This document shows, in pieces, positions 19,801-35,960 of a DNA stretch of 64,000 bases. Every line of letters begins with the position of its first letter. Within the stretch, counting starts at the first letter, position 1. A model generated the notes under the pieces. It was given only the letters and a program-made list of their open reading frames with translations. It was not told the DNA's origin and ran no database searches. A program made the position numbers and the translations under genes. Origin of the DNA: Coprobacter tertius (lineage in GTDB: Bacteria; Bacteroidota; Bacteroidia; Bacteroidales; Coprobacteraceae); contig NZ_JANDHW010000004.1 in NCBI RefSeq assembly GCF_024330105.1, positions 62,001 through 126,000 on the forward strand, given 5' to 3'.

Positions 19801-20546
19801 ACAACTACTGAATTCGAAATGATATTCGCATCGTCGCCATAAACTTCCGATGCTTTATATATAAGAGAAACAATACCGCCCGTATTGGAATTGGGAGTAG
19901 AACATACGCCGGCAAAATATACATTATGTATTTCAACATCAGCCGCCAGTCCGAGAATACCTCCACATTGATAAGATACAGATACTACCTCTGCCGTAGA
20001 AAAACAATTAAAAATCATCGATTTTCCATTTCCTTCGGGATCGGTCGGATAGGTACCTCCTACAACTCCGCCAACATGGTCATAACCTTGTATATACCCA
20101 GTTGTATAACAACCCTCTATTGTTGAAGCAGTTGCCTTACCGATAATGGCGCCTACATCAGCGCGCCCTATAAAATATACATCTTCAAAACCGACGTTTT
20201 TGATCGTAGCATTTTGTGCTACTCCTATGAACCCGACGTTATTAGCAGTCTCATCACTAAACTTCAATCCTTTTATTATATGACCGTTCCCATCGAACGT
20301 ACCTGTAAAAGGATCATCTGTCGTTCCCAGAGGAACCCAATCTTCGGAGAGAGAGAGATCCGCTACCAATTTATAACTTCCTTCCGGATTATCCATTATC
20401 GACTTTAATTGATCGACTGTCGAAATTTCAGTTTGTGCCCACAAAGGTTGAGACATAAAAGCACACAGAAGAATAAATAACATCTTCTTTACAGATCCGA
20501 AACGATAATAACACGATCCGGATAAAGTTTTTGTAACCTTACTCAT
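16899..20546 (-). CDS. GLUG-repeat surface protein with type IX-like C-terminal domain (locus A)
   Basis: A 1215-residue secreted protein with a long n-region and a signal peptide ending near SQPLWAQ. Three large modules of the GLUG type occur at about 37-340, 440-720 and 844-1090. Each opens with an EISTVDQLKSI-like helix, then PFTGTFDGNGHIIKGL, then rungs such as GFEDVYFIGRADVGAIIG, DHVGGVVGG and QCGGILG; this pattern suggests a right-handed beta-helix. A bacterial Ig-like domain (AYSVMGLDVTYTSEDPEVATI) lies near 379-435 and another spacer domain near 742-840. The end (about 1150-1215, KAEIVVFDLNGRLIAG .. GIYVVRVVENGKTMTFKVV) looks like a type IX sorting domain. GLUG proteins are often adhesins. 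Position before SusC suggests a surface capture protein, but no ligand is known. Confidence 0.85.
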   Translation of the reverse strand: MSKVTKTLSGSCYYRFGSVKKMLFILLCAFMSQPLWAQTEISTVDQLKSIMDNPEGSYKLVADLSLSEDWVPLGTTDDPFTGTFDGNGHIIKGLKFSDETANNVGFIGVAQNATIKNVGFEDVYFIGRADVGAIIGKATASTIEGCYTTGYIQGYDHVGGVVGGTYPTDPEGNGKSMIFNCFSTAEVVSVSYQCGGILGLAADVEIHNVYFAGVCSTPNSNTGGIVSLIYKASEVYGDDANIISNSVVVSPYLKGGTITRRILANRGDNDKGMPYKLMNNYALQNMLINGVQIDDEEAMIGSDMPQGESKTMDELKSSAFYKSILGWDESVWRMNDGNYPVLLWQPEEALNIDRVVGLPTEPGNVSSGTDISVTAYSVMGLDVTYTSEDPEVATIDAEGKISCLKAGKTVIKASTAGNSLVMPASSEYHLNVITVSSSIRTAEDLNNIRYDLVGEYTLEEDIVLDAPWEPIEGFSGILNGNGHIIKGITFGDEKKSNVGLFGSTKGAVISKLGLENAELIGDVNVGALVGAAENTKITECYVANSYIEGRDHVGSIIGGILPNGEGSTIVQNCYATAEVTSRSTQAGGIAGTMGDGIIDKCFYSGIVKTQASNAGGIVSLIDNGVEQTISNCICHSPFMLGRNVGRILATKDNREATLNNNYARYDVMRGESESTLQGYDPEDPESISEGLNGITTAREFVYSSEFYETQLNWDMTTIWKMAGEGVIYPILAWQKTPITASVLNLPREKVRLVKGNSMKIKGYGSMGQPIYFETPQENTIVTMWLEYNAYDEIDFALFGTIGDNLQFGTATVKSSTDATEFITESETYFDIEVIDGESLKKEISSVEDLMNITEDMMGDYKLTCNIDLTSIASWTPIGNKQNPFKGKLDGNGYSIINLKYNNAGGNEVGLFGYTSGAVIKNLGVIDVEIIGNADVAAVSGGATGTTFSQVWVTGTIEGNDHVGGIVGMTYTGGASSISDCYCRATMSTRMAQVGGLAGVIQSTKIERSYSSGTVTAPTTDWQKNAGGLVGLSYDGNNELYGVVSLASSVTGGTTNPWIARGDVAVISNSLYRSDMVLSVGDESVPGYDQPSESAKKDLSSFYKQSTYEALEWDFSSVWKIESNEFPTLQIQKKIISGIENIDSDENEYVPYVQNGKLFITGIGKAEIVVFDLNGRLIAGSSAMSADTGIQLPTKGIYVVRVVENGKTMTFKVVNL

Positions 20547-20671: not shown

Positions 20672-23600
20672 TTAATCGGGAAGCCTGCCCACCCCCCAAT
20701 TTTTATTAGGAGTCTCTCCCATTTGGAGAATCAGAGTACCGCCTTTTAATAATTCCCGGGCCGGGAACCAGAAATTATTCAAGGGTTTACCATTCAAAAT
20801 CGCACTTTGTACATATTTATTTTTTCTCGAAACATCTTTCGCCTCTATCGTAAATGTATTTCCTCTTCCGAAACGTTTGCCCAAATCGATCACCGCTTTA
20901 CTGAACAACGGACTCGCTATTTCATATACAGGATCCACACGACAGCCTCCGTCAGTTTGGAAAAGTCCCAGAGAAGCCATAACCATCCAGGCACTCATCT
21001 GTCCTTGGTCCTCATCACCCAAATAAGCATTTCCAATTCCTTTTCCATAGTAACGGTCGATTACCGAACGACTCCATTTCTGCGTAAGCCAGGGTTCTCC
21101 TGCCCAATTGAACAGAAAAGCAAAATGCATCGACTGCTGATTTCCTTGTACAACCGGATAATCCCAATATTTATCATTAGGAGCATTATATCTTACAGAC
21201 TCGCTTACCTGAAATCCCCAATCGAGCCTTTTTATAAACTTTTCACGCCCGATTATATCGATTAAAGCCGGTACATCCTGAGGGACAAAATAGCTGAGTT
21301 GCCAAGCATTCCCTTCTACATATTGAGCATTACGTCCACTCGTAAAAGGATCGAAAGGAGTTACAAAACATCCGTCACTATTTCTCAGCTGCGCATATCC
21401 ACTATCAGGTTCGATCGCATTTTTCCACCAATATCCCCGATCGATAAATGTCTTATATTCATCCGGTTTATTTAATGATTTTGCAAACTGAGCTACCGTC
21501 CAGTCATCATAAGAATACTCGAGTGTATTTGAAAACCTTCCCAAATCGGCCGGCACAAACTTATATTTGAGATAGTGTTCCAAATCTCGGTTTCCGGCAA
21601 ACCCACCATCTACTTTTCGAGCAGATGTCGTCTGCATCTTTTTCACCGCTTCAAAAGCCTTTTGTACATCGTAATCCCGTATTCCCATCTGATAGGCTCC
21701 TACGATAAGCGGAATTTCATGTTCGGCTACCATCACCGGCACATATTCCATTCCAGCCGGACCTTTTGCAAGCCATCCACCTGCATCATACATAGCTAAT
21801 TGCGAATTCACCCAACGATTACTCCATTCGGGTACGACAAGATTCCAAAACTGATTCAGGTTCCAGAAAGTATTCCAGAAAGCGTCGCAACCCAAAGCAA
21901 CGTGATCGGGATTATCAAATTTGCGTATTCTCTCACCGGCATCCCGCCACTCGCCATTTACGTCACTCCAAATATTTCGACTACATATCGAACGATACAT
22001 ATTGTTATAAAAACGTTTCTTTTCAGAAAAATCATTCGATTCTACTTTTACCCGTTCCAACAAATCATTCCATACATTCAGTTGATTGTTTCTTACCGCA
22101 TCGAAACTCCAGTTAAACGGTTGGGTTATTTCAGTTTCAAGATTTAAAGAAGCATTCTCTACACTCACCAGAGACACGCCTGTACGTAGCTGGACGACAG
22201 GATTTTTTTTCACATCAAATTCCACATACAAACCGGCCGATTTCAAATTATTTCCCGCAAACTCTTTGCCTTCGGTTACGATATCATTCAACCATCCTCC
22301 GGTTTTGATAATCGGGCGATCAAACTCAATTACAAAAAACAACGTATAGTCCTGATCGGCATCTGCTCCCCAAACTCCTTTAGATAATTGATGCGAATAT
22401 CCTTCGATGCGATAATCCGAAACTTGCTTCACCTGCAACTCGAGAACTTCATATCCATACTCCGCCGGTATTTTAAAATCGATCATAACCCGGCCATTTC
22501 CTCCGTCTTTAGGGTAAGTATACCGTTGAAACCCACAGCGAGTAGTCGCCGTTAATTCTGCAAGAATATCGTAATCGGTTAGCTTTACCTTATAATAGCC
22601 GATAGGAGCTTCTTCAGAAGATCGATCGATACGAGATCGATAGCCGTCCGGATCATTCTCTTTTCCTATCCGAGTAACCAATTTCCCATTTGTCGGGAAC
22701 AGTCCTAATCCGGCCATAGTCCATTCATGTATATGACTGAAGGTTCCGATCGATTCTATCGAAGGTTGATATCCCGATTGCCAACCGGGATTCTGATTAT
22801 CGGGACTCAGTTTTACCATACTGAAAGGCATCCAAGGCCCGGGGGCAATCATCCATCTCGAATGAGCCGACCCCATTCTCGTATCTATATAATCTGCAGC
22901 AGTTTGAATGCTCTGAGGAGACCGAAGAACCATCCCCTCCTGATATAATTCCCTATTTACATAAACGGCATATTTACTGTTTTTCTGTTTTTTTACAGCA
23001 GGCATCGGTACTTCATAAATATAACGACCAGTATCGGGCCTTTCCTCAAAAATATTTTTTCCATCCAGATATACCTGTAATAACGGCTTACCCGAAAGAT
23101 GTTCTATATCTACAAGCAAAGGTTGAAATCGTTTCTTCGATACTTTTAGCTCATAATCTGCCGGAGAAATATTCCTAACAAACAGATTCTCGGCAGTCAT
23201 CATTTTTAAGCCTTCGGGAACTTCCAACTCGATGTTATCGAACATAATCCATGAACCTTCCCAAATCGTAAGAGTAATTTCATTTCCTCCCTTTTTCAAT
23301 TTTTCTACCGGAAAAGATATTTTGATTTCGGAACCGGCACCTTCAACCGGACCCTTCTTTAATGTTTCTTCTGTTCCTTTACCAATAACAACACCATTAT
23401 ATATCTGCTCCCCATTAAGCAAAACTTTCAATACTGGCGCATTATTCCGGGCTGCATCCGTAGTACGAACGATCAAGTTGGCGATACCCTCACTTTTAGT
23501 TTCTCTAATTCCAAAAAGTATATTCATATCATTTATTCTGATACCGGCCATTCCTCCTGTTCCTCCCCATACATCACGAGGCCCAGGAAGAACATAAGGA

Positions 23601-23812
23601 AATGATTCGCTTTCCTGTGAATAACCAACAAGAAAATATCGGTCTTCATACCCAAAATCATTTGCTAAAAATTCATTATATTTATCGGGAGCTAAAGCAA
23701 ATTCTGCAGAAGAATTATTTTTTACACCTATATTCCATAATGTTTTTATGCCTGCATTTACCAGACAAGAATACAGAATACCACAAACCAATAAAACCGA
23801 TCGCATTTTCAT
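20672..23812 (-). CDS. GH92 alpha-mannosidase with N-terminal accessory region (GH92-C)
   Basis: A GH92 enzyme of 1046 residues, far longer than the usual 750. The frame stays open upstream to 23935, but a promoter at 23938-23967 would start transcription there, so I chose the ATG at 23810-23812, which opens a signal peptide (MKMRSVLLVCG .. VNAG). Residues 20-300 form extra domains beginning TLWNIGVKNNSSAEFALAP, which recalls the C-terminal carbohydrate-binding-like domain of PL4-type lyases; this is tentative. The catalytic part has FSHIHEWTMAGLGLFPTNG, FWNTFWNLNQFWNLV, EGNAWQLSYFVPQD (Glu833) and GDEDQGQMSAW (Asp935). The usual FSHTHLSGTG, LWDTYRALHPL and HGNEPSHH motifs are all altered (QGNQQSMHFAFLFNW), so the substrate should differ from plain alpha-1,2-mannose. 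It is transcribed alone or together with the GLUG gene 125 bases downstream. Confidence 0.88.
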   Translation of the reverse strand: MKMRSVLLVCGILYSCLVNAGIKTLWNIGVKNNSSAEFALAPDKYNEFLANDFGYEDRYFLVGYSQESESFPYVLPGPRDVWGGTGGMAGIRINDMNILFGIRETKSEGIANLIVRTTDAARNNAPVLKVLLNGEQIYNGVVIGKGTEETLKKGPVEGAGSEIKISFPVEKLKKGGNEITLTIWEGSWIMFDNIELEVPEGLKMMTAENLFVRNISPADYELKVSKKRFQPLLVDIEHLSGKPLLQVYLDGKNIFEERPDTGRYIYEVPMPAVKKQKNSKYAVYVNRELYQEGMVLRSPQSIQTAADYIDTRMGSAHSRWMIAPGPWMPFSMVKLSPDNQNPGWQSGYQPSIESIGTFSHIHEWTMAGLGLFPTNGKLVTRIGKENDPDGYRSRIDRSSEEAPIGYYKVKLTDYDILAELTATTRCGFQRYTYPKDGGNGRVMIDFKIPAEYGYEVLELQVKQVSDYRIEGYSHQLSKGVWGADADQDYTLFFVIEFDRPIIKTGGWLNDIVTEGKEFAGNNLKSAGLYVEFDVKKNPVVQLRTGVSLVSVENASLNLETEITQPFNWSFDAVRNNQLNVWNDLLERVKVESNDFSEKKRFYNNMYRSICSRNIWSDVNGEWRDAGERIRKFDNPDHVALGCDAFWNTFWNLNQFWNLVVPEWSNRWVNSQLAMYDAGGWLAKGPAGMEYVPVMVAEHEIPLIVGAYQMGIRDYDVQKAFEAVKKMQTTSARKVDGGFAGNRDLEHYLKYKFVPADLGRFSNTLEYSYDDWTVAQFAKSLNKPDEYKTFIDRGYWWKNAIEPDSGYAQLRNSDGCFVTPFDPFTSGRNAQYVEGNAWQLSYFVPQDVPALIDIIGREKFIKRLDWGFQVSESVRYNAPNDKYWDYPVVQGNQQSMHFAFLFNWAGEPWLTQKWSRSVIDRYYGKGIGNAYLGDEDQGQMSAWMVMASLGLFQTDGGCRVDPVYEIASPLFSKAVIDLGKRFGRGNTFTIEAKDVSRKNKYVQSAILNGKPLNNFWFPARELLKGGTLILQMGETPNKNWGVGRLPD

Positions 23813-23937
23813 GATATTTAAATTAAGTTGCATCATCTTCCTCTTTACTCTCATTATAATTTCTATACCGTATCTACTACTCTTCATCAGATCATACAAT
23901 AATATGTACCCGAAAAAATTAATATGTTCAAACATTG

Positions 23938-24305: not shown

Positions 24306-25037
24306 TCAGTCCCTCAAGCATTCAATTATATAGGTAAAGCTATCGGCTCGATAATAGCCTAAATTATATTCCACCGGATTATTATTAACATCATAAACAA
24401 ATCTCTTACGCAACAACACCGGATCTCCCACTTTAATTTCGAGCTTCTCCGACAGAAAGGAATCAGCAACTAATGCACTTATCTCTTCTTTAGACTTATT
24501 TAATATTACTCCTTTATCTTTCTCTATAATATCATATAAAGGACGAGTAAAATCCTCATCTCCAGTAAGCTTTAAAGACGGGTTAAAATAAGAAATAAAA
24601 TATACGAAAGGGAAATTAACTTTGCCCCGTAACCGTTCGAGAACTAATAACTTTTGCTCAGGAGAAACTTCAAAAAGAGAGCAAACCTCTTCACTGGGAT
24701 ACTTACGTCCGATATATAATTCGAAATTACAAACTTCTATTCCCAAAGCCTTCATTTCTTGAGAAAAACTCATCCAGTTTTTAGCGCTGCTCAATACACC
24801 CTTTTTCACAACTCGGGTGCCGAATCCTTTTTTACGAACCAACAAACCCTCAAATACCAATTTATTAATGGCTTGGCGTAATGTATTGCGGGAAATATTC
24901 AATTGTGCCGATAATTCTATTTCATTGGGCAATAATTTTCCCTTCTGATATTCCTCTTTTTCGATAAGTTTGCGCAACAAACTTTCTGCCTGCAAATGCA
25001 AAGGAGTAGAACTATTGTGATCAATATTCAGATTCAT
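24306..25037 (-). CDS. GntR/HutC-family transcriptional regulator with UTRA domain
   Basis: A 243-residue cytoplasmic regulator. Residues 1-75 form the winged helix-turn-helix (LPNEIELSAQLNISRNTLRQAINKL .. GLLVRKKGFGTRV). Residues 95-238 are the UTRA ligand-binding domain of the HutC subfamily (FELYIGRKYPSEEV .. LLVLERLRGKVNFPFVYFISYF .. PVEYNLGYYRADSFTYIIE). Such proteins usually repress sugar genes until a phosphorylated sugar binds. The gene faces the mannose-6-phosphate isomerase/ROK kinase operon across a 200-base spacer with back-to-back promoters, so it probably controls both that operon and itself. A mannose-derived sugar phosphate is the obvious candidate effector, by context only. 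Confidence 0.93.
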   Translation of the reverse strand: MNLNIDHNSSTPLHLQAESLLRKLIEKEEYQKGKLLPNEIELSAQLNISRNTLRQAINKLVFEGLLVRKKGFGTRVVKKGVLSSAKNWMSFSQEMKALGIEVCNFELYIGRKYPSEEVCSLFEVSPEQKLLVLERLRGKVNFPFVYFISYFNPSLKLTGDEDFTRPLYDIIEKDKGVILNKSKEEISALVADSFLSEKLEIKVGDPVLLRKRFVYDVNNNPVEYNLGYYRADSFTYIIECLRD

Positions 25038-25133
25038 AACACATTACATTAAATATATTTATCAATCATTTGTTTAGTACATATCACTGAACAAAGGTTC
25101 CTTATCTGATTATACAGAAAGTTTAAACCTCTG

Positions 25134-25164
25134 CAAAGATATATATTCTCACTTTTAAAACAAA
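25134..25164 (-). promoter_or_regulatory. Promoter of the GntR-family gene
   Basis: On the minus strand: TTTG (25161-25164), a 19-base spacer, TATCTTTG (25134-25141). Its -33 box forms the left half of the palindrome CAAAATATTTTG at 25161-25172, whose right half is the -33 box of the opposite promoter. Confidence 0.75.
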
Positions 25165-25172
25165 ATATTTTG
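25161..25172. promoter_or_regulatory. 12-bp palindrome joining two divergent -33 boxes; candidate operator
   Basis: CAAAATATTTTG is a perfect palindrome. It contains the -33 element of both divergent promoters. A protein bound here would block both. GTACATA occurs on either side (25077-25083 and 25214-25220), the latter within ATGTACAT; these are further candidate sites for the GntR-family protein. None of this is proven. Confidence 0.55.
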
Positions 25173-25198
25173 ATTAATAGATTTTGTTCGTATATTTG
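25169..25198 (+). promoter_or_regulatory. Promoter of the mannose-6-phosphate isomerase/ROK operon
   Basis: TTTG (25169-25172), an 18-base spacer, TATATTTG (25191-25198), a very good match to the Bacteroidetes pattern. Transcription would start near 25205, which supports the ATG at 25238 as the true start of the isomerase gene and excludes an upstream in-frame ATG at 25184. Confidence 0.8.
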
Positions 25199-25237
25199 CA
25201 CAATCTATCAAATGTACATACATATAAAATAAAAACT

Positions 25238-26974
25238 ATGATACGTAAATCAAATTACGATAAATTCCCGGCTACAAAAGTAGATGGTATTCTTATTCGT
25301 GGATGGGAAAACATAATAGATGAGTTACAAAAAAATATAAACACCGGAAATTACACCATTGTTTTCGACTGTTATACGGGAATTTACGAGAATGAAATTA
25401 TACGGGAATTAAACAAATTATCTCCCGAATTATTCATAAATACACGCGATCTTTTTAAAACGCAAGAAGAAATATACGCAATGACACGCCCTTTTATGAC
25501 AGAAGATGTACTTTTCGGACATTTAAGCTGTCTGGGTATAAACGATTACTTCGATACCGGGAAACTCGATACCGCCCGGGAAAAAGTACATAAAACAAAT
25601 TCTTTAAACATTATATTCGGTACGGGAGCCTATTATGCAATTCCAAAAGCCGACCTTATTATATATGCCGATATGGCCCGTTGGGAAATACAACAACGGT
25701 TCAGAAAGCACGAAGTAAACGCATTGGGAATCGATAACCGTGCCGATGCCGTTTCTCTACAATATAAAAGAGGATACTTCAACGACTGGAAAATATGTGA
25801 TGAATATAAGCGGTCATTATACGATAAAATAGATTTTTGGGTAGATACGCACATTGCAGACGATCCCAAAATGATCGATAAAAAAACTTTTTTTAATGGA
25901 ATCGAATCTACCGTCGAAAAACCTTTCAGAGTCGTACCGTTCTTCGATCCTGCTCCCTGGGGCGGTAAATGGATGATAGACGTCTGCGACCTTCCGAATA
26001 ACAAGCCCAATTACGGATGGTGTTTCGATTGCGTTCCCGAAGAAAATAGCCTTTACCTGAACATAGATGGAATAAATTTCGAGATGCCATCGGTAAATGT
26101 AGTATATCTCGAAAGCAGGAAATTATTAGGTGAAGCCGTAGAGGCACGATTCGGAAAAGAATTTCCCATCCGTTTCGATTTTCTCGATACAATCGGGGGT
26201 GGAAATTTGAGTTTACAGGTACATCCTACCACTCAATTCGCACACGAAGCATTCGGAATACACTACACTCAAGACGAAAGCTATTATCTTCTCGATGCCG
26301 AAGAAGATGCATGCGTTTATCTGGGAATAAAAAACGATATCGATCCCGAAAATATGATCGACAGTCTTAAAACTGCACAAAAAGGAGATTCTATTTTCCA
26401 AACAGAAAAATATATAAACAAATTTCCAGCCCGTAAACACGATCATTTTTTAATTCCTGGAGGAACAATTCACTGTTCGGGTGCAAATTCTATGGTTTTA
26501 GAGATCAGTTCTACGCCAAATTTATTTACCTTTAAGCTCTGGGACTGGGAAAGACTCGGACTCGACGGAAAACCTCGTCCGATTAACATCGAACGGGGTG
26601 AAAAAGTGATCGATTTTTCCCGCGATACGGCTTATGTGAAAAACAATCTCGTAAACCAGATCACAGAGATCGCTAAAGGAGACGGATGGAAAGAGGAAAA
26701 AACAGGATTACACCCTAACGAATTTATAGAAACCCGTCGTCATTGGTTTACCAAACAAACTCCTCATCATACCGGAAACAGCGTTAATGTGCTGAATCTG
26801 GTAGAAGGAGAAGAAGTCATCGTGGAAAGTCCCCGCAAAAAATTCGAGCCATTTATCGTACATTATGCCGAAACATTCATTATTCCTGCGCATATCGGAG
26901 AATACACCATTACACCGCACGGAGTATCGAAAGGTAAAATGTGTGCTACGATAAAGGCCAGTGTAAGGATATGA
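25238..26974 (+). CDS. manA: Class I mannose-6-phosphate isomerase with extra N-terminal domain
   Basis: A 578-residue cytoplasmic protein. The C-terminal 350 residues or so are a type I phosphomannose isomerase, which converts mannose-6-phosphate to fructose-6-phosphate with zinc. Motifs are PAPWGGKWMIDV (near 243), IGGGNLSLQVHPTTQFAHEAFG (near 325-346), ESYYLLDAEEDACVYLG, FLIPGGTIHCSGANSMVLEIS, and LWDWERLGLDGKPRPINIERG. The first 220 residues are not part of that enzyme. They look like a degenerate nucleoside-kinase-type alpha/beta domain (NYTIVFDCYTGIYENEI where a P-loop would sit, and LIIYADMARWEIQQRFRKHE later), but have no intact Walker A lysine. The start was chosen from the promoter at 25169-25198. 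The ROK kinase gene follows after 19 bases in the same operon. Confidence 0.9.
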   Translation: MIRKSNYDKFPATKVDGILIRGWENIIDELQKNINTGNYTIVFDCYTGIYENEIIRELNKLSPELFINTRDLFKTQEEIYAMTRPFMTEDVLFGHLSCLGINDYFDTGKLDTAREKVHKTNSLNIIFGTGAYYAIPKADLIIYADMARWEIQQRFRKHEVNALGIDNRADAVSLQYKRGYFNDWKICDEYKRSLYDKIDFWVDTHIADDPKMIDKKTFFNGIESTVEKPFRVVPFFDPAPWGGKWMIDVCDLPNNKPNYGWCFDCVPEENSLYLNIDGINFEMPSVNVVYLESRKLLGEAVEARFGKEFPIRFDFLDTIGGGNLSLQVHPTTQFAHEAFGIHYTQDESYYLLDAEEDACVYLGIKNDIDPENMIDSLKTAQKGDSIFQTEKYINKFPARKHDHFLIPGGTIHCSGANSMVLEISSTPNLFTFKLWDWERLGLDGKPRPINIERGEKVIDFSRDTAYVKNNLVNQITEIAKGDGWKEEKTGLHPNEFIETRRHWFTKQTPHHTGNSVNVLNLVEGEEVIVESPRKKFEPFIVHYAETFIIPAHIGEYTITPHGVSKGKMCATIKASVRI

Positions 26975-26993: not shown

Positions 26994-28100
26994 ATGTACA
27001 ATTACGACGAACGCATTGTGATGACTCTCGATGCAGGCGGCACAAATTTCGTTTTTTCAGCCATACAAGCCAATCGGGAAGTCGTTACCCCCATCACATT
27101 ACCGTCTCATGCAAATAATCTTCAAGAATGTCTCAAAACTCTTGTCGAAGGATTCGAATCGGTAATCAAACTTTTACCGACTCCACCCGTAGCAATCAGT
27201 TTCGCCTTCCCTGGCCCCGCAGATTATGTCAACGGAGTAATAGGAGACTTGCCCAATTTCCCCTCTTTCCGCGGCGGTATTGCTCTGGGACCGTATTTAC
27301 GATCTCGGTTTAATATTCCTGTTTACATCAATAATGACGGCAATCTATTCGCTTATGGTGAAGCACTGGCAGGCGCATTGCCTTCTTTGAATAAAAAGAT
27401 AGAAGAAGCCGGGTACAAACGCAGATACCGTAACCTACTGGGTATCACACTCGGAACAGGTTTCGGAGGAGGTGCCGTTATCAATAATATATTGTTAACC
27501 GGAGATAACGGATGCGGCGGAGATGTATGGATCTTCAGAAATAAAAAATATAAAAATATGATTGCCGAAGAAAGCGTAAGCATACGAGCAGTCATAAGAG
27601 TTTATGAAGAAAAAACCGGGGAAAAACATCCGGGAATTACCCCTAAAGACATCTTCGACATCGCTGAAGGAACTCAAAAAGGAGACCAAAACGCAGCCAA
27701 AGAAAGCTTTGCCGAATTAGGAGAAATTGCCGGTGACGTTATTGCACAGGCCGATTCTATCGTGGACGGAATCGTTGTCATCGGTGGGGGGCTTACCGGA
27801 GCATCCCGGTATATTATGCCCTCTTTAGTAAAAGAAATGCAACAAAGATTTTCAACATTTGCTGGCGACAGTTTTCCTCGTATGCAAACTTCGGTTTATA
27901 ATCTCGACGATCCTGAAGAAGCCGAACGTTTTCTCGAGTTGAAAGAAAACACGGTAAAAATTCCTGGTGGAAAAGAATCCGTACCTTATCTCCAAGATAT
28001 GCGCATCGGTGTTATTACCTCTGAAATAGGAACGAGCAGGGCTATTTCTTTAGGAGCATACGCTTTTGCCCTTTCCAGCATAGACGCAGAAGAAAAATAA
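26994..28100 (+). CDS. ROK-family sugar kinase (probable mannokinase/glucokinase)
   Basis: A 368-residue cytoplasmic ROK-family kinase. The ATP phosphate-binding motif is LDAGGTNFVFSA (near 13), sugar contacts include SFAFPGPADYVNGVIGDLPNFP, the catalytic Asp lies in YINNDGNLFAYGEA, and nucleotide contacts are LGITLGTGFGGGAVI and VIGGGLTGA. The zinc motif normally following (GHxxxxxxxxxCxCGxxGCxE) is absent; GDNGCGGDVWIFRNKKYKN stands in its place, so the enzyme is an atypical ROK member. It follows the isomerase gene by 19 bases. The pair would convert mannose to mannose-6-phosphate and then fructose-6-phosphate. Exact sugar specificity cannot be read from the sequence. Confidence 0.9.
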   Translation: MYNYDERIVMTLDAGGTNFVFSAIQANREVVTPITLPSHANNLQECLKTLVEGFESVIKLLPTPPVAISFAFPGPADYVNGVIGDLPNFPSFRGGIALGPYLRSRFNIPVYINNDGNLFAYGEALAGALPSLNKKIEEAGYKRRYRNLLGITLGTGFGGGAVINNILLTGDNGCGGDVWIFRNKKYKNMIAEESVSIRAVIRVYEEKTGEKHPGITPKDIFDIAEGTQKGDQNAAKESFAELGEIAGDVIAQADSIVDGIVVIGGGLTGASRYIMPSLVKEMQQRFSTFAGDSFPRMQTSVYNLDDPEEAERFLELKENTVKIPGGKESVPYLQDMRIGVITSEIGTSRAISLGAYAFALSSIDAEEK

Positions 28101-28177: not shown

Positions 28178-29371
28178 TTACTTGATAACACCCAAGTGTT
28201 TTCCAACACGAATAAATGCGTCGATACAAGTATCGAGTTCTTCTTTTTTATGTGCAGCAGACAGCTGAACACGGATACGAGCTTGTCCTTGAGGAACAAC
28301 AGGATAATAGAAGCCGGTCACATAGATTCCTTCTTCGAGCATTTCGGCAGCAAAAGTCTGCGATAATTTAGCATCATACAGCATAATAGCACAAATAGCC
28401 GATTGTGTCGGTTTAATATCGAAGCCTGCCGCCATCATCTTCTCACGGAAATAAGTCACATTATTTACCAAAATAGTATGCAACTCATCACTTTCGTCAA
28501 GCATCTTAAACATTTCTATACCGGCTCCTACTACTGCGGGAGGCAATGAATTAGAAAACAGATAGGGACGAGAGCGCTGACGCAACATATCGATGATTTC
28601 TTTACGTCCGGTCGTAAAACCACCGACAGCACCACCGAATGCTTTGCCTAATGTACCGGTATATATATCGATACGGCCATAAACATCGAACTGTTCGCTT
28701 ACACCATGACCGGTTTTACCGACAACACCAGCCGAATGGCATTCATCTACCATAACCAATGCATCGTATTTTTCAGCCAAGTCACAAATTTTATCCATGG
28801 GAGCTACATTTCCATCCATAGAGAAAACTCCGTCGGTAACAATGATGCGGAAACGTTGAGCCTGAGCTTCTTTCAAACAACGCTCGAGATCATTCATATC
28901 GGCATTTGCATAACGATATCGTTTTGCTTTGCAAAGACGCACACCATCGATAATAGAAGCGTGATTCAACGAATCGGAGATAATAGCGTCTTCTTCGGTG
29001 AAGAGAGGCTCGAATACGCCCCCGTTAGCATCAAAACAAGCCGCATATAAAATCGTATCTTCCGTTTTAAAATAACGGGAAACCGCAGCTTCGAGTTCTT
29101 TGTGGATATCTTGTGTACCACAGATAAAGCGAACCGAAGACATACCGTATCCTCTCTTATCCATCATTTCCTTCGCCGCTTTTATAAGACGGGGATTATC
29201 GGACAAACCCAGATAATTGTTCGCGCAAAAATTCAACACTGTTCCTTTACGCTCAGCTACCTGTATGGCAGAACTTTGGGGGGTAATTATCGTACGCTCA
29301 TTCTTGTAAAGACCGTTTTCCTTAATCGACCCGAGTTCAGCCGAAAGGTGTTCTTTCATTTTTCCAAACAT
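28178..29371 (-). CDS. kbl: 2-amino-3-ketobutyrate CoA ligase (glycine C-acetyltransferase)
   Basis: A 397-residue PLP-dependent alpha-oxoamine synthase, cytoplasmic. It splits 2-amino-3-ketobutyrate with CoA to glycine and acetyl-CoA. Motifs are LNFCANNYLGLSDNPRLI (near 46), GYGMSSVRFICGTQDIHKELE, SDSLNHASIIDG, the cofactor Asp in VMVDECHSAGVVGKTGHG, and the PLP lysine Lys243 in GTLGKAFGGAVGG. Length matches the family (about 395-400). It follows the threonine dehydrogenase gene after 12 bases, so the two steps of threonine to glycine are in one operon. It ends against the bidirectional terminator at 28115-28166. Confidence 0.97.
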   Translation of the reverse strand: MFGKMKEHLSAELGSIKENGLYKNERTIITPQSSAIQVAERKGTVLNFCANNYLGLSDNPRLIKAAKEMMDKRGYGMSSVRFICGTQDIHKELEAAVSRYFKTEDTILYAACFDANGGVFEPLFTEEDAIISDSLNHASIIDGVRLCKAKRYRYANADMNDLERCLKEAQAQRFRIIVTDGVFSMDGNVAPMDKICDLAEKYDALVMVDECHSAGVVGKTGHGVSEQFDVYGRIDIYTGTLGKAFGGAVGGFTTGRKEIIDMLRQRSRPYLFSNSLPPAVVGAGIEMFKMLDESDELHTILVNNVTYFREKMMAAGFDIKPTQSAICAIMLYDAKLSQTFAAEMLEEGIYVTGFYYPVVPQGQARIRVQLSAAHKKEELDTCIDAFIRVGKHLGVIK

Positions 29372-29383
29372 AAGATACTGGTA

Positions 29384-30337
29384 TTAAAGATTCTTTAATT
29401 TTAAATGTTTTATCATATCTACCGTCATAGAAGACAGGTCGTACTCGGGCTTCCATCCCCATTCTTCACGGGCACAGGTATCATCGAGTGAGTTAGGCCA
29501 CGAATCGGCAATACTCTGACGCAAAGCATCTATTCGGTATTCCATTTCAAATGTAGGAAAATGTTTTTTAATTTCAGCATAAATCATCTCCGGATCAAAA
29601 CTCATCGAAGCGATATTGAACGAATTCCGGTGTATCAGCTTAGCAGGATCGGCTTCCATCAGCATAACGATCGCATGCAAAGCATCGGGCATATACATCA
29701 TATCCATAAACGTGCCGGCCTTAACAGGAGTATAAAATTTCTCTCCTTTCACAGCCGAATAATAAATATCGACAGCATAATCGGTCGTTCCACCTCCCGG
29801 AGGTGTCACATAGGAAATAAGTCCTGGGAAACGTACCGAACGCGTATCTACACCAAAACGATGGAAATAATAATCGCTCAACAGTTCACAGGTTACTTTA
29901 CTCACCCCATAAATCGTTTGTGGACGCTGTATCGTATCCTGCGGAGTTTTATCTTTGGGTGAAGACGGTCCGAAAGCTCCGATAGAACTGGGTGTAAATA
30001 CCGCACAATTCTTTTCACGGGCAATTTCGAGTAAGTTCAACACTCCGTTTATCTGTATGTTCCATGCCAATACGGGACGTTGTTCGGCTTGAGCCGACAA
30101 AATCGCCGCCAGGTTAAAAATACTATCGATGTGGTATTTATCGACAATTGCCGCAATTTGTTTAGTATTCAAAACATCGGCTTCTTCCAGAGGCCCACCA
30201 TCACGTAAACATTCTGGGATGGAAATTCCGGCAATGTGTCCGGCTACCACATTGTCACCACCATAGAGAGAGCGCAGTTTTACGGTCAACTCAGATCCGA
30301 TCTGGCCTGTGGCTCCAATTACAAGTATCTTCTTCAT
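29384..30337 (-). CDS. tdh: L-threonine 3-dehydrogenase, short-chain (NAD-epimerase-like) type
   Basis: A 317-residue cytoplasmic NAD-dependent dehydrogenase of the extended short-chain family. It has the Rossmann motif GATGQIGSEL (near 8), NLAAILSAQAE, FTPSSIGAFGP, and the catalytic YGVSKVTCELL (Tyr-x-x-x-Lys, near 143). This epimerase-like form of threonine dehydrogenase is typical of Bacteroidetes and differs from the zinc enzyme of enteric bacteria. Function is supported by the adjacent kbl. It starts 42 bases after the stop of a GH92 gene in the same direction, with a small AGGATA/TATCCT hairpin in the gap but no clear promoter or terminator, so read-through from the mannosidase locus is possible. 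Confidence 0.93.
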   Translation of the reverse strand: MKKILVIGATGQIGSELTVKLRSLYGGDNVVAGHIAGISIPECLRDGGPLEEADVLNTKQIAAIVDKYHIDSIFNLAAILSAQAEQRPVLAWNIQINGVLNLLEIAREKNCAVFTPSSIGAFGPSSPKDKTPQDTIQRPQTIYGVSKVTCELLSDYYFHRFGVDTRSVRFPGLISYVTPPGGGTTDYAVDIYYSAVKGEKFYTPVKAGTFMDMMYMPDALHAIVMLMEADPAKLIHRNSFNIASMSFDPEMIYAEIKKHFPTFEMEYRIDALRQSIADSWPNSLDDTCAREEWGWKPEYDLSSMTVDMIKHLKLKNL

Positions 30338-30379: not shown

Positions 30380-32731
30380 TTATTTGTTTTTTGTGTAAAG
30401 CAATGTTTCACCGGAGTTACTCAACGATGGGGGGACACAACCATCCGATACACCACGTTTGAGATTTGGAGTAGAACTCATTACAAAACGTATCTTCGCA
30501 CCGTCTTTTATATCGTCGTAAGTAAAATACGATCTATCGAGTTCCTTTCCATTCAGGAATACTTTATCTACATATACATTCTTTTCCGACCAATTTTCGG
30601 TAGTCACTTCTACTACCTTTCCATTGCTCATTCTCATCGTAACAGCCTCGAGTGCCGGAGAACCGATATTATAGACATTGCTGGATGGCGCTACCGGATA
30701 GAATCCCATACAGTTAAAGATATACCAAGCCGACATTTGCCCGCAATCGTCATTACCACTCAAAGATCCGGGTTCATTACCATAGAAATTATCAACAATC
30801 GTACGTACCCATTTCTGGCATTTCCACGGTTGTTTCAAGTAATTATACAAATACGTAATCTGATGACAGGGTTCGTTGCCATGCCAATAAGCACCTATAC
30901 GCCCCTGTATATCATGTGCACCGGGAATATCGTCGGGCAACTCCATTATAAACATAGAATCGAGTCGGGCGGCAAAATGTTCTTCTCCCATCGCATTGAT
31001 ATATCCCTGTACATCATGAGGTACATACCAAGTATACTGCATTGTAAATCCTTCGGTAATATCTCCCCAACCGTTTACAGAACCAGGGCCCTGATAAGCT
31101 ATCGGAGCAAATGGTGTACGCCATTCACCTTTACTATCTCGGCCTCTCATATATTTAGAAACCGGGTCGATCAGATTCTGATAGGAAAGAGAACGATTCA
31201 AGAAATATTCATAATCTTCCTTCTTACCCAATTTTTTAGCAGCTTGTGCGATACAATAGTCGTCATAAGCATATTCGAGTGTTTTCGAAACAGATTCTTT
31301 TTCTTTATCGAAAGGAACCCATCCCAAAGAATCATACTCGGGAAGACAATCGTAATTAGGATTCATGGCTGTACGTTTCATCGCTTCGTATGCCCTTTCA
31401 TAATCAAATCCTTTTACGTCTTTCATAATCATATCAGCCAATACCGATACCGAATGATAACCGATCATACACCAAGTTTCGTTTCCGTAGAACGACCAAA
31501 TCGGCAACATATGTTCAACGCTTTTATCGTAATGCGCGAGCATAGAATTGGCAATATCGGCGTTTACCCCCTGCTGTACCAGATTAAATAACGGATGTAA
31601 AGCACGATAAGTATCCCATAAAGAGAATACCGTCATATTGGTAAAGCCTTCGGCCGTATCGATATTCTTATCGAGTGCACGATACCGATTATCAGAATCC
31701 TGGAATATAAAGGGATGCTGGAATGCATGATAAACCGAAGTATAAAATGTTTCTTTCTGTTTTTTATTTCCTTTTATCGAGAATTTATTCAATTCTTTAT
31801 TCCAAAGTTTTTCCCCTTTTGCCTTCAGCGATTCGAAATTCTCACCGTCGAGCTCTTTCATATTTGCCAAAGCAGAAGCTGTACTTACTCCCGAAATCGC
31901 AGTTTTCACATACACCGGTTCTTTATCGTCGGTCTTAAACCGCATCCAGAATTTTACATTCTTACCCCAAGTTTCTTTCGAACTGCGGAAACGATTGGTA
32001 TTATAAATCACCGGAGAATTATTCAACATTATACCGGCCTGATCCAAAGGTTTAGAGAATACTGCTGCAAAATAAATGTGGCGTTCCGGCCCCCATCCTT
32101 TTACCAATTTATAACCGGTAATCGTTGAGTCGTTTTCGATACGCACATTCGCCCATTCACAAGATTGCCACAGTGTATGGTTAAGATCGATCATAATAAA
32201 AGAACTATCGCTCTGCGGATACGTAAAACGGAATATACCGCTACGTAACCCCGAAGTCATTTCGGCTTTTACACCATAATCGAGTAAATCTACCCCATAA
32301 TAATTGGGGGAAGCCCATTCCTTGTCATGTGAATAACGGGAACGATATCCCGAATCGGGATTTTCATGTGTACCCGGAGTAAACTTAATCTCCCCTGTTC
32401 CCGGAACAAAAAGGAAGTCCCCCAAATCGGGGATTCCCGTTCCGCTCAAATGAGAAAGACTAAAACCGAGTAAAGTCATGTGATTATACTTATAACCCGA
32501 AGCGGCATCGTAATAATCGAAATCGGTATCGGGGCTCATTTGTATTCCTCCAAAGGGAATCTGTGAACCAGGATAAACATTCCCGAAACCAGAAGTACCG
32601 ATCATGGGATTTACATATTGTATCAAGTCTTCTTCAGCCGCAGCCGTTTCGGTTCCCCGAGTTCCGGTACAGGCACTCAACAAAAGCACCTGAGCACCGA
32701 TAATTATATGTCTAAATTTAAATAGCACCAT
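30380..32731 (-). CDS. GH92 alpha-mannosidase, lipoprotein (GH92-D)
   Basis: A 783-residue GH92 enzyme. The ATG at 32729-32731 is preferred over one 24 bases upstream because it gives a compact signal with lipobox LLSAC. It is therefore a lipoprotein. Landmarks are VNPMIGTSGFGNVYPGSQIP, GFSLSHLSGTGIPDLGD, FSLWDTYRALHPLF, EGFTMQYTWYVPHD with general acid Glu560, HGNEPCHQITYLYNY, and GNDDCGQMSAW with base Asp662. The EGF in place of EGN before the aromatic pair and PCHQ in place of PSHH are mild departures from the alpha-1,2 pattern. It is the last enzyme gene of locus B, 29 bases after the small BSP peptidase gene, with tdh 42 bases downstream. Confidence 0.95.
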   Translation of the reverse strand: MVLFKFRHIIIGAQVLLLSACTGTRGTETAAAEEDLIQYVNPMIGTSGFGNVYPGSQIPFGGIQMSPDTDFDYYDAASGYKYNHMTLLGFSLSHLSGTGIPDLGDFLFVPGTGEIKFTPGTHENPDSGYRSRYSHDKEWASPNYYGVDLLDYGVKAEMTSGLRSGIFRFTYPQSDSSFIMIDLNHTLWQSCEWANVRIENDSTITGYKLVKGWGPERHIYFAAVFSKPLDQAGIMLNNSPVIYNTNRFRSSKETWGKNVKFWMRFKTDDKEPVYVKTAISGVSTASALANMKELDGENFESLKAKGEKLWNKELNKFSIKGNKKQKETFYTSVYHAFQHPFIFQDSDNRYRALDKNIDTAEGFTNMTVFSLWDTYRALHPLFNLVQQGVNADIANSMLAHYDKSVEHMLPIWSFYGNETWCMIGYHSVSVLADMIMKDVKGFDYERAYEAMKRTAMNPNYDCLPEYDSLGWVPFDKEKESVSKTLEYAYDDYCIAQAAKKLGKKEDYEYFLNRSLSYQNLIDPVSKYMRGRDSKGEWRTPFAPIAYQGPGSVNGWGDITEGFTMQYTWYVPHDVQGYINAMGEEHFAARLDSMFIMELPDDIPGAHDIQGRIGAYWHGNEPCHQITYLYNYLKQPWKCQKWVRTIVDNFYGNEPGSLSGNDDCGQMSAWYIFNCMGFYPVAPSSNVYNIGSPALEAVTMRMSNGKVVEVTTENWSEKNVYVDKVFLNGKELDRSYFTYDDIKDGAKIRFVMSSTPNLKRGVSDGCVPPSLSNSGETLLYTKNK

Positions 32732-32760
32732 AATTTCATAAATGAGTGTTATCAATCAGA

Positions 32761-33580: not shown

Positions 33581-35911
33581 TTAAAACTTTCCATCGGTCA
33601 TAGAATACGGTTTCGTTTCAGATGAGATCCCTCTTTTCTTATTCGGTTTAGACGACATCTCGAAAACGATTTCACCGCCATTCATAAGGTCTTCATGAGA
33701 AAGATACATTTTATCGTAATTCTTTCCATTGAGTTTTACGCTCTTCACGTAACGATTTTTATCACTAACTTTAGGAGCTTTTATTTCGAAAATTTTGCCA
33801 TTACCCAATTTCACTTTCATATAAGGTAAATATGGGGCTCCGAGTACATATTCATCCGAACCCGGGCATACCGGATAAAATCCCATTGCCGTAAAGATAT
33901 ACCATGCAGACATCTGTCCGCAATCATCATTGCCACATAAACCGTCGATATTATTTTTATACATGCGATTCATAATTTCTCTCACCCAATATTGAGTTTT
34001 CCAGGGTTGAGAACTCCATGCATACAAATAGGCAATGTGATGACTCGGTTCATTTCCATGTACATAGTTACCGATTAGCCCTTCTTTTGTCACATCTTCG
34101 GTATTTTCATAATATTTTGCAGGCAGTTCCATTACAAACAATGAATCGAGATTGCTGATAAATTTTTTATCACCGCCCATTGCAGTAATCAATCCGTTTA
34201 CATCATGAGGAACATAGAAAGAATAATTCCATGAATTACCTTCGATAAAACCTTCTCCATGTGTATTTAACAAACTGAAATTCTTTTTCCACTCGCCATT
34301 TTTATATTTAGGACGAGCCCAGCCCAAATCCCGATCGAATACGTTACGATAATTCAATGCTCTTTTTGCATATTCATCGGCCACTTTCTTATTCCCGGCT
34401 TTTTGTGCCATCTGATATATCGTCCAGTCGTCATATGCATATTCAAGCGTTACCGACACGGCACTACCATTACGATCGAAAGGGACATAACCATATTGCA
34501 TATAATCTTTTACCCCCTCATAATAAGGAAGAGTAGAACTGCTTACCATTGCCTCGATAGCTTTCGAAGCATCTACATTTCCTCCTTTTACATAAGTATC
34601 TGCCAAAACAGGAACCGCATGATAACCGATCATACACCAGTTTTCGTTCCCCATCAAAGACCATACCGGAAGAGCCTTGTGTACACTTTGTTCATAATGT
34701 TTCAGCATAGACTCTACCATATCGGCGTTACGCTGCGGATGAAGTACATTAAATAAAGGATGCAAGGCACGATAGGTATCCCACAAAGAGAAAATAGTAT
34801 AGTTGGTAAAACCGTCGGCCTGATGAATATTATGATCGAGACCACGATATTGGCCATCTACATCCATATAAATAGAAGGGTTAATCATTGTATGATACAA
34901 CGAAGTATACAACATCGCCAACTGGTCGTTATTTCCTTCAGCTTCGATCAGATCGAGATCTTCTTCCCATTTAGCTTTAGTACGTTCAGCCAATTGATCG
35001 AAATCAAGCCCGGCTGTTTCCGCTTTCAAATTTTTCAGAGCACCGTCGGTACTTACTGCCGAAAGAGCGACTTTCAATTCCAATGATTCTTTGTCGGCCA
35101 TATCGAAATCGAAATAAGCGACTACCTTACGGCCTGCAATTTCAGGGAAATTATGATTCAAATCGAATTTACGCAAAAAACCACTGTACAACACCCTTTC
35201 TTTATCTACATATCCATAATTTTTGATAGGCTTAGATAAAGAAATCGCAAAATAAGTATAATTGGTACGAGCCCAACCGTTAGTAATACGATATCCTGTA
35301 ATCAGCGTATCATTTTCTACACGTATAGTCGACCATAGAGTTTTTCCATCATAATTATATATACCATGTATCAGGTCGAGAATAATATGTGCATCTTTGC
35401 CTTTATTAAAAGTATATTTATGCACACCAACCCGCTCGGTTGCCGTCAACTGAGCTTTAATATCATAATCGTCTAAAACGACTTCATAATATCCGGGAGT
35501 ACATTTTTCGGTATCATGAGAATAGTTAGACCGATAGCCATTTTCGGGATGATCGCTCGTACCCGGATTCAACATCAGTTTTCCTACCGTAGGCATAATC
35601 AGTACATCTCCTAAATCGGAGTGACCCGTACCGCTCAAATGAGTATGGCTGAATCCTACGATCGTTTTATCACGATGTTGATAACCGGCACAATACTCAT
35701 ACACTTTTTTCTGATAAGCTCCATTCACATTTTGCGGAATCGTATCGGTATCCGGACTCAACTGTACAATACCGAAAGGAGCACATGCTCCCGGGAAAGT
35801 ATGCCCCATACCGTTCGTCCCGATAATGGGGTTTACATAATCTGTAAGTCCAGACTGTGCAAATAATGCACAGCTGAACATACAGAGAGATGATAATATT
35901 AAACGTTTCAT
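33581..35911 (-). CDS. GH92 alpha-mannosidase (GH92-E)
   Basis: A 776-residue GH92 enzyme with a signal peptide (MKRLILSSLCMFSCALFAQ); an ATG three codons earlier is possible. Landmarks are VNPIIGTNGMGHTFPGACAP, GFSHTHLSGTGHSDLGD, FSLWDTYRALHPLF, EGNSWNYSFYVPHD with general acid Glu557, HGNEPSHHIAYLYAW, and GNDDCGQMSAWYIF with base Asp663. This is the fullest match in the window to canonical alpha-1,2-mannosidases of the family. It lies in locus B, 49 bases after GH92-F and 19 bases before the small BSP peptidase gene. It probably trims alpha-1,2-mannose from high-mannose N-glycans or mannoproteins in the periplasm. Confidence 0.95.
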   Translation of the reverse strand: MKRLILSSLCMFSCALFAQSGLTDYVNPIIGTNGMGHTFPGACAPFGIVQLSPDTDTIPQNVNGAYQKKVYEYCAGYQHRDKTIVGFSHTHLSGTGHSDLGDVLIMPTVGKLMLNPGTSDHPENGYRSNYSHDTEKCTPGYYEVVLDDYDIKAQLTATERVGVHKYTFNKGKDAHIILDLIHGIYNYDGKTLWSTIRVENDTLITGYRITNGWARTNYTYFAISLSKPIKNYGYVDKERVLYSGFLRKFDLNHNFPEIAGRKVVAYFDFDMADKESLELKVALSAVSTDGALKNLKAETAGLDFDQLAERTKAKWEEDLDLIEAEGNNDQLAMLYTSLYHTMINPSIYMDVDGQYRGLDHNIHQADGFTNYTIFSLWDTYRALHPLFNVLHPQRNADMVESMLKHYEQSVHKALPVWSLMGNENWCMIGYHAVPVLADTYVKGGNVDASKAIEAMVSSSTLPYYEGVKDYMQYGYVPFDRNGSAVSVTLEYAYDDWTIYQMAQKAGNKKVADEYAKRALNYRNVFDRDLGWARPKYKNGEWKKNFSLLNTHGEGFIEGNSWNYSFYVPHDVNGLITAMGGDKKFISNLDSLFVMELPAKYYENTEDVTKEGLIGNYVHGNEPSHHIAYLYAWSSQPWKTQYWVREIMNRMYKNNIDGLCGNDDCGQMSAWYIFTAMGFYPVCPGSDEYVLGAPYLPYMKVKLGNGKIFEIKAPKVSDKNRYVKSVKLNGKNYDKMYLSHEDLMNGGEIVFEMSSKPNKKRGISSETKPYSMTDGKF

Positions 35912-35960
35912 TTCTTGCACTTTAAATTAAGGAATAAATGTAATGACGCACTGTAAAAAT

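Follow-up and report, generated by a model that had tools for sequence, protein, structure and literature searches.

A predicted pseudokinase domain precedes a probable long-form phosphomannose isomerase in a mannoside utilisation locus of Coprobacter tertius

What is the stretch of some 225 residues that stands in front of the catalytic cupin of a phosphomannose isomerase (PMI) of Coprobacter tertius, and what might it contribute to the enzyme? The gene lies in a stretch of 64,000 nucleotides (contig NZ_JANDHW010000004.1, hereafter the window) as a plus-strand open reading frame of 578 amino acids, running from an ATG at 25238 to a stop codon that ends at 26974 (25238..26974); all features of this gene given below are on the same strand. 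The reading frame, a sequence match and a full-length structure model make this most likely a gene for the long, catabolic form of class I PMI, members of which are often annotated as class I mannose-6-phosphate isomerase. A preliminary description of the window had counted about 220 residues ahead of the cupin and placed the end of the extension at 25910, which agrees well with our count of about 225 residues and with a PMI domain that begins at about residue 229, near 25922; the strings it quoted, FDCYTGIYENEI and RWEIQQRFRKHE, are indeed present as residues 43-54 and 148-159. The frame is beyond chance read-through, because at least 535 stretches of a genome collection encode relatives of the domain and because residues are conserved over 121 aligned proteins.

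The PMI cupin domain (residues 229-578; 25922..26971) was delimited by sequence, by structural match and by its position in a tree. Residues 226-459 matched the B. subtilis PMI 1qwr in a search of PDB sequences (E 2.2e-10), and the full-length model is predicted to have the PMI cupin fold of the same protein (E 1.8e-26, target TM 0.84). The window protein scored below the curated thresholds of both family libraries, with 16.3 bits against a cut-off of 22 for PF20511 (Pfam) and 12.9 bits against a cut-off of 571 for NF011710 (NCBIfam); these scores reflect a library threshold and no biochemical trait, as the sequence is divergent and the fold is that of a PMI. The protein shares its C-terminal fold with the B. 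subtilis class I enzyme and carries the motifs QVHP and DESYY, but differs from it by the approximately 225 extra residues in front. The residues that we presume to be zinc ligands, Q327, H329, E347 and H412, lie within 26216..26473. H329, E347, H412 and R439 are kept in all 121 aligned proteins and Q327 is Gln in 116 of them; the zinc-ligand or catalytic roles of these five residues are assigned by motif and from general knowledge of PMIs. Four divergent long PMIs (L232, L233, L234 and L236) read IHNHP at the QVHP position and have Gly instead of His at position 401, and may, judging by these sequences, act on another sugar phosphate.

GH92 enzymes release mannose, and on the strength of this established knowledge we regard the window as a mannoside utilisation locus, since it holds three minus-strand genes of this alpha-mannosidase family (20672..23935, PF07971 E 8.5e-136; 30380..32755, PF07971 E 1.4e-165; 33581..35920, PF07971 E 2.4e-181). 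A gene for a ROK-family sugar kinase (26994..28100, plus strand; PF00480 E 1.9e-23) begins 19 bases downstream of the isomerase. Upstream, a divergent GntR/UTRA regulator (24306..25037, minus strand; PF07702 E 1.7e-27, PF00392 E 9.2e-16) is separated from the isomerase by an intergenic region at 25038..25237. Ten further window proteins were scanned; besides the GH92 enzymes they include an MFS transporter and a SusD protein that has a TonB-receptor-type protein next to it. Two other groups of minus-strand genes were observed. Between the ROK gene and the next GH92 gene, an aminotransferase-family gene and an NAD-epimerase-family gene occupy 28178-30337, a pair that looks like 2-amino-3-ketobutyrate CoA ligase and threonine dehydrogenase. 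A protein of 1215 amino acids with GLUG and M26-N-like matches is encoded at 16899-20546, between a GH92 gene and the SusD/TonB-receptor pair.

The N-terminal domain (residues 1-225; 25238..25912) was delimited by an AlphaFold2 model, Foldseek and VIA-align. Residues 1-236 alone had no significant match in Pfam or NCBIfam (best Pfam E 0.25), and their sole match among PDB sequences was an uncharacterised protein (E 0.76), with no kinase found. The AlphaFold2 model of these residues, built on 76 aligned sequences, is confident (pLDDT 92.1, pTM 0.88). When it was searched with Foldseek, 42 matches had E values of 0.001 or lower; predicted similarity was best to type I pantothenate kinases (1sq5, E 1.5e-5), followed further down by nicotinamide riboside kinase 1 (NRK1), uridine kinase, phosphoribulokinase and other small-molecule and nucleotide kinases. 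VIA-align superposed the model on pantothenate kinase 5xlv_B (Z 13.3, rmsd 3.6, 184 aligned residues, 11% identity), on NRK1 2qsy (Z 11.1, rmsd 3.4, 157 aligned) and on uridine kinase 3asy_B (Z 10.6, rmsd 3.1, 152 aligned). It is this predicted model that gives the domain the P-loop kinase fold of the NRK, uridine-kinase and pantothenate-kinase type, as the preliminary description had suggested when it spoke of a nucleoside-kinase fold. The best fold match, type I pantothenate kinase (1sq5, 5xlv), covers residues 14-217 of the window model; the window domain differs from it in lacking the Walker A motif, in its 11% identity and in being shorter than the 288-residue chain. That the domain is merely a longer cupin was ruled out by the predicted kinase-like fold.

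One sequence comparison points in the same direction, at the border of significance. A profile of 32 diverse relatives (A6), searched against 177,635 PDB sequences with E values up to 10, had only two matches, both of them NRK1 chains (E 0.023 and 0.026); this match, borderline when taken alone, agrees with the predicted fold, and in its alignment the degenerate P-loop of the domain falls on the true P-loop. NRK1 (2p0e, 2qsy) would resemble the domain in its fold and, from the P-loop to Asp56, in a borderline sequence match, and differs in that the window domain is fused to a PMI and has no equivalents of Lys16 and Asp36. A narrower profile (A3) matched only proteasome subunits in the PDB (E 1.2), and no kinase. 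With hhalign, neither profile showed significant homology to 18 uridine kinases from related genomes; the non-significant alignment covers 157 columns, in which the P-loop, Asp, Glu-Gly and Asp145 line up as expected and D90 does not. When 76 and then 32 members were scanned one by one against Pfam, at E values up to 1, the hits were scattered over unrelated families, each matched by between one and seven members; the best were EutQ (E 0.00069) and Cytidylate_kin2 (E 0.0015), each in one member.

We then compared 121 aligned proteins, namely the window protein, 75 of 80 genome-collection proteins (complete and longer than 500 amino acids), 40 from the wide loci described below and 5 from plasmid records, taking the register of the kinase positions from the A6/NRK1 and the uridine-kinase hhalign alignments, neither of which is individually significant. 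In NRK1, Lys16 is the Walker A lysine, Asp36 the catalytic residue and Asp56 a ribose-binding residue; the uridine-kinase Glu is catalytic. Both alignments place a degenerate P-loop at residues 40-52 (TIVFDCYTGIYEN; 25355..25393). Its glycine G48 is Gly in 120 of the 121 proteins, and the Walker A lysine position, E51 in the window protein, is Lys in a single one (L088, which has no GK[ST] there), which bears out the earlier claim that this lysine has been lost. The motif GxxxxGK[ST] is absent from the window domain; GK[ST] strings in L025, L229, L209 and L233 lie elsewhere in the domain, seemingly outside the P-loop. R70 (25445..25447) occupies, in both alignments, the position of the catalytic Asp (NRK1 Asp36), where Asp is found in 6 of 121, and F127-G128 (25616..25621) stand, in the hhalign register, at the uridine-kinase Glu-Gly, with Glu in none and Gly in all of the proteins. 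From these counts, which show the Walker A lysine and both catalytic acids to be gone from all or nearly all of the 121 proteins, an active kinase was judged unlikely.

Other positions have been kept. D90, in the segment TEDVLFG (residues 88-94; 25499..25519), is Asp in 115 of the 121 proteins; it falls on NRK1 Asp56 in the A6 alignment and, in the hhalign alignment, on a serine a few columns past the uridine-kinase Asp. Within YADMARWEIQQRFR (residues 143-156; 25664..25705), D145 is invariant, and R154 and R156 are Arg in 113 and 108 proteins. The helix YKRGYFNDWKICDEYK (residues 176-191; 25763..25810), seen in the AlphaFold2 model and the alignment, has at residue 177 a Lys (115 proteins) or an Arg (6). 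On average, the domain varies more than the PMI domain, with a mean column entropy of 2.18 versus 1.36 bits and 18 versus 70 columns below 0.45 bits over the 121 proteins; among the 18 are the charged residues D90, D145, K177, D183, K191 and D203. Taken together, the predicted fold, the loss of the ATP and catalytic residues, the constraint on charged residues and the lasting attachment to an enzyme whose step follows that of a kinase are the anatomy of a pseudokinase, as far as model and alignment can tell.

The extension called an unexplained fusion in the preliminary description is real, but it is no local peculiarity: it is the regular architecture of a widespread clade of long PMIs. Searches located the domain in 11 of 60 genomes, in 8 of 295 genomes of the class with a narrow profile and in 21 of 296 Bacteroidota genomes with a wider one (own genome included each time; the match in G400, counted among the 21, is weak and partial). 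In a second phylum, 19 of the 194 genomes searched carry it. Among the relatives encoded by the genome collection, 80 were kept; 65 records of a plasmid collection match the whole protein, with a coverage of at least 80% in 19 cases, under labels that include Parabacteroides, Photobacterium, Hymenobacter, Listeria, Deinococcus, Arthrobacter and Streptomyces. This wide conservation, over the genome collection and two sampled phyla, ruled out a local fusion artefact or a misassembly.

The linkage between the two domains is close. When the long-form PMI domain alone was searched against the 296 Bacteroidota genomes, 20 matches scored at least 478.6 bits in frames of at least 584 amino acids, and these are exactly the 20 places with a full N-terminal domain; the next match scored 140.2 bits, and the 41 from there to E 1e-30 lie in frames of 320-344 amino acids. 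The 194 genomes of the second phylum gave 16 PMI matches of at least 399.9 bits and 7 divergent ones (140.4-177.9 bits), which together are the 23 places of the domain, while the other PMI matches scored at most 145 bits, mostly in frames of about 315-480 amino acids, with three longer (520, 538 and 677). In a tree, 53 long PMI domains, the clade of the window protein, stood apart from 30 short ones at 100/100, with a bootstrap not fully settled and a sample in which the long domains were picked by hand from the 121 and the short ones were those with loci returned. The simplest reading of these sequences is that the long clade arose by one old fusion. The preliminary description had set a kinase resemblance against an integral part of a known long isomerase subtype; the domain does prove integral to such a subtype, yet the kinase resemblance is there as well.

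Exceptions are few. Apart from the weak partial match in G400 (E 2.9e-4), where the domain occurs without an intact long PMI, the domain is followed by a shortened PMI in L004 and L084, and the frames of L033 and L063 are broken early. The frame at L084:8001-9518 (Dysgonomonas sp. 511), like that in L004, has 506 amino acids, and its PMI ends early; from its sequence it looks as if it ran into the C-terminal end of an apparent ROK kinase, as after an in-frame deletion. The second half of the domain and the start of the PMI are joined in frame to glycoside-hydrolase-like sequence in L012 (G026:C180), which is either an assembly chimera or a deletion. Frames of 901, 910 and 769 amino acids in L140, L156 and L165 were discarded as fusions, for they look like out-of-frame upstream readings in G+C-rich DNA. 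In nearly every intact copy the domain and the PMI occur together, which suggests a controlling or supporting role of the dead kinase for the isomerase.

The preliminary description had noted that a ROK kinase is encoded next, and ROK is in fact the usual neighbour. Of the 80 loci of the genome collection, 73 are assessable, and 66 of these have a ROK frame on the same strand that begins no more than 2.5 kb downstream; one of the other seven (L067) has ROK directly upstream. Seven more loci end too soon. We also read 40 wide loci, out of 45 domain places outside the own genome, from 37 genomes. A sugar kinase lies near the domain in 29 of them, ROK in 23 (three times as a single ROK-domain-PMI chain) and a BadF-type kinase in 6; neither was found in the stretch read at the other 11, one of which (L217) is on a contig of only 5.3 kb. 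At 20 short-PMI loci, read for about 7 kb on either side or as far as the contig reached, there was neither a ROK nor a BadF-type gene, a contrast that is indicative, as these loci came from relatives of the own genome and the wide loci are taxonomically broader. No ROK was found within about 7 kb at a Listeria locus with an incomplete gene table. Beside two of the BadF-type kinase genes and their long PMIs we observed an adjoining gene for a cupin-type glucose-6-phosphate isomerase (PF06560; L218:5993-6610 and L226:6355-7134). Single chains of ROK, pseudokinase and PMI, 886-896 amino acids long, occur in four loci (L104:5059-7719, L143, L144 and L146). The first, WP_144076932.1 of Flammeovirga kamogawensis, has the same pseudokinase and PMI domains as the window protein, differs in having the ROK kinase fused to them, bears no annotation beyond 'ROK family protein' and is followed by a transporter, a hypothetical protein and a GH92 gene.

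Sugar kinases make mannose 6-phosphate, which PMI converts to fructose 6-phosphate. At the window locus, the GH92 enzymes would free mannose, the ROK kinase would turn it into mannose 6-phosphate and the isomerase would yield fructose 6-phosphate. The N-terminal domain would no longer phosphorylate anything; it may have kept part of its old substrate pocket (D90, D145, R154, R156 and K177), where it would bind a sugar or sugar phosphate, or less likely a nucleotide, and it could pass the state of this ligand to the isomerase domain packed against it, so that glycolytic flux would follow supply. That the pseudokinase is a ligand-sensing domain of a catabolic PMI is the reading we favour over a structural role, a docking role and a second activity, in this order, and we hold it tentatively, short of conviction. 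The fuller proposal, of a multi-phylum clade of catabolic PMIs under allosteric control by a built-in dead nucleoside-type kinase turned sugar or sugar-phosphate sensor, is possible but somewhat more doubtful. Several points weigh against a sensor: conservation is lower in the domain than in the PMI part, the similarity to NRK1 in sequence is borderline, and the first ten Foldseek matches have modest TM values by query (0.37-0.51) and rmsd values of 5.9-11.4. Moreover, the register of D90 differs between the two alignments, so the argument for a kept pocket rests on one borderline alignment, and the conserved residues could form the domain interface instead of a pocket.

The dead fold might, alternatively, only stabilise or oligomerise the long PMI and bind no regulator. 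The loss of the catalytic residues, the co-occurrence of the two domains and their predicted single, definite arrangement (full-length model, pTM 0.92) would all be expected of a purely structural part, although such an arrangement is needed by sensing and structural readings alike. Packing alone, however, need not keep 18 columns, several of which are charged, under 0.45 bits in all 121 proteins, and PMIs without such a domain are common, with a short-form match in 57 of the 60 genomes (own included), among them all 11 that have the long form; we consider a purely structural role rather unlikely, if a serious competitor. Still less probable is a docking module that holds ROK next to the PMI and channels mannose 6-phosphate, which is close to the scaffold for the ROK kinase imagined earlier. 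It would explain why ROK follows in 66 of 73 loci and occurs in 23 of 40 wide loci versus none of 20 short-PMI loci, and the four fused chains speak for it too. Yet the domain and its motifs are kept in those very chains, where ROK is already attached, and they persist beside a BadF-type kinase (6 of 40 wide loci) or with neither kinase in the stretch read (11 of 40, and likewise in Listeria), so a ROK dock is insufficient as the whole story. A second enzyme, be it a kinase, a phosphatase or another activity that needs no Walker A lysine, would account for the invariant D145 and G128, for a residue 177 that is basic in all 121 proteins, as in an active site, and for the P-loop glycine kept in 120; given the lost lysine, Asp and Glu positions and the real sugar kinase often encoded nearby, we deem it very improbable.

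Pseudokinases are well known from the protein kinases; examples among the small-molecule P-loop kinases are far less familiar. Within the open-access literature, no paper on the domain appeared among the titles and abstract openings of the matches listed, a scope outside which most subscription papers fall, and passages of PMC13118837 and PMC12965863 do not describe it. If the ligand-sensing reading held true, Bacteroidota and other bacteria would regulate their mannose catabolism through a domain that the versions of Pfam and NCBIfam searched do not recognise. The long, domain-bearing PMI and the short PMI of the same cell offer a clean test pair; in C. tertius the short enzyme, encoded elsewhere in the genome, has 324 residues and is 26% identical to the window protein over residues 215-462.
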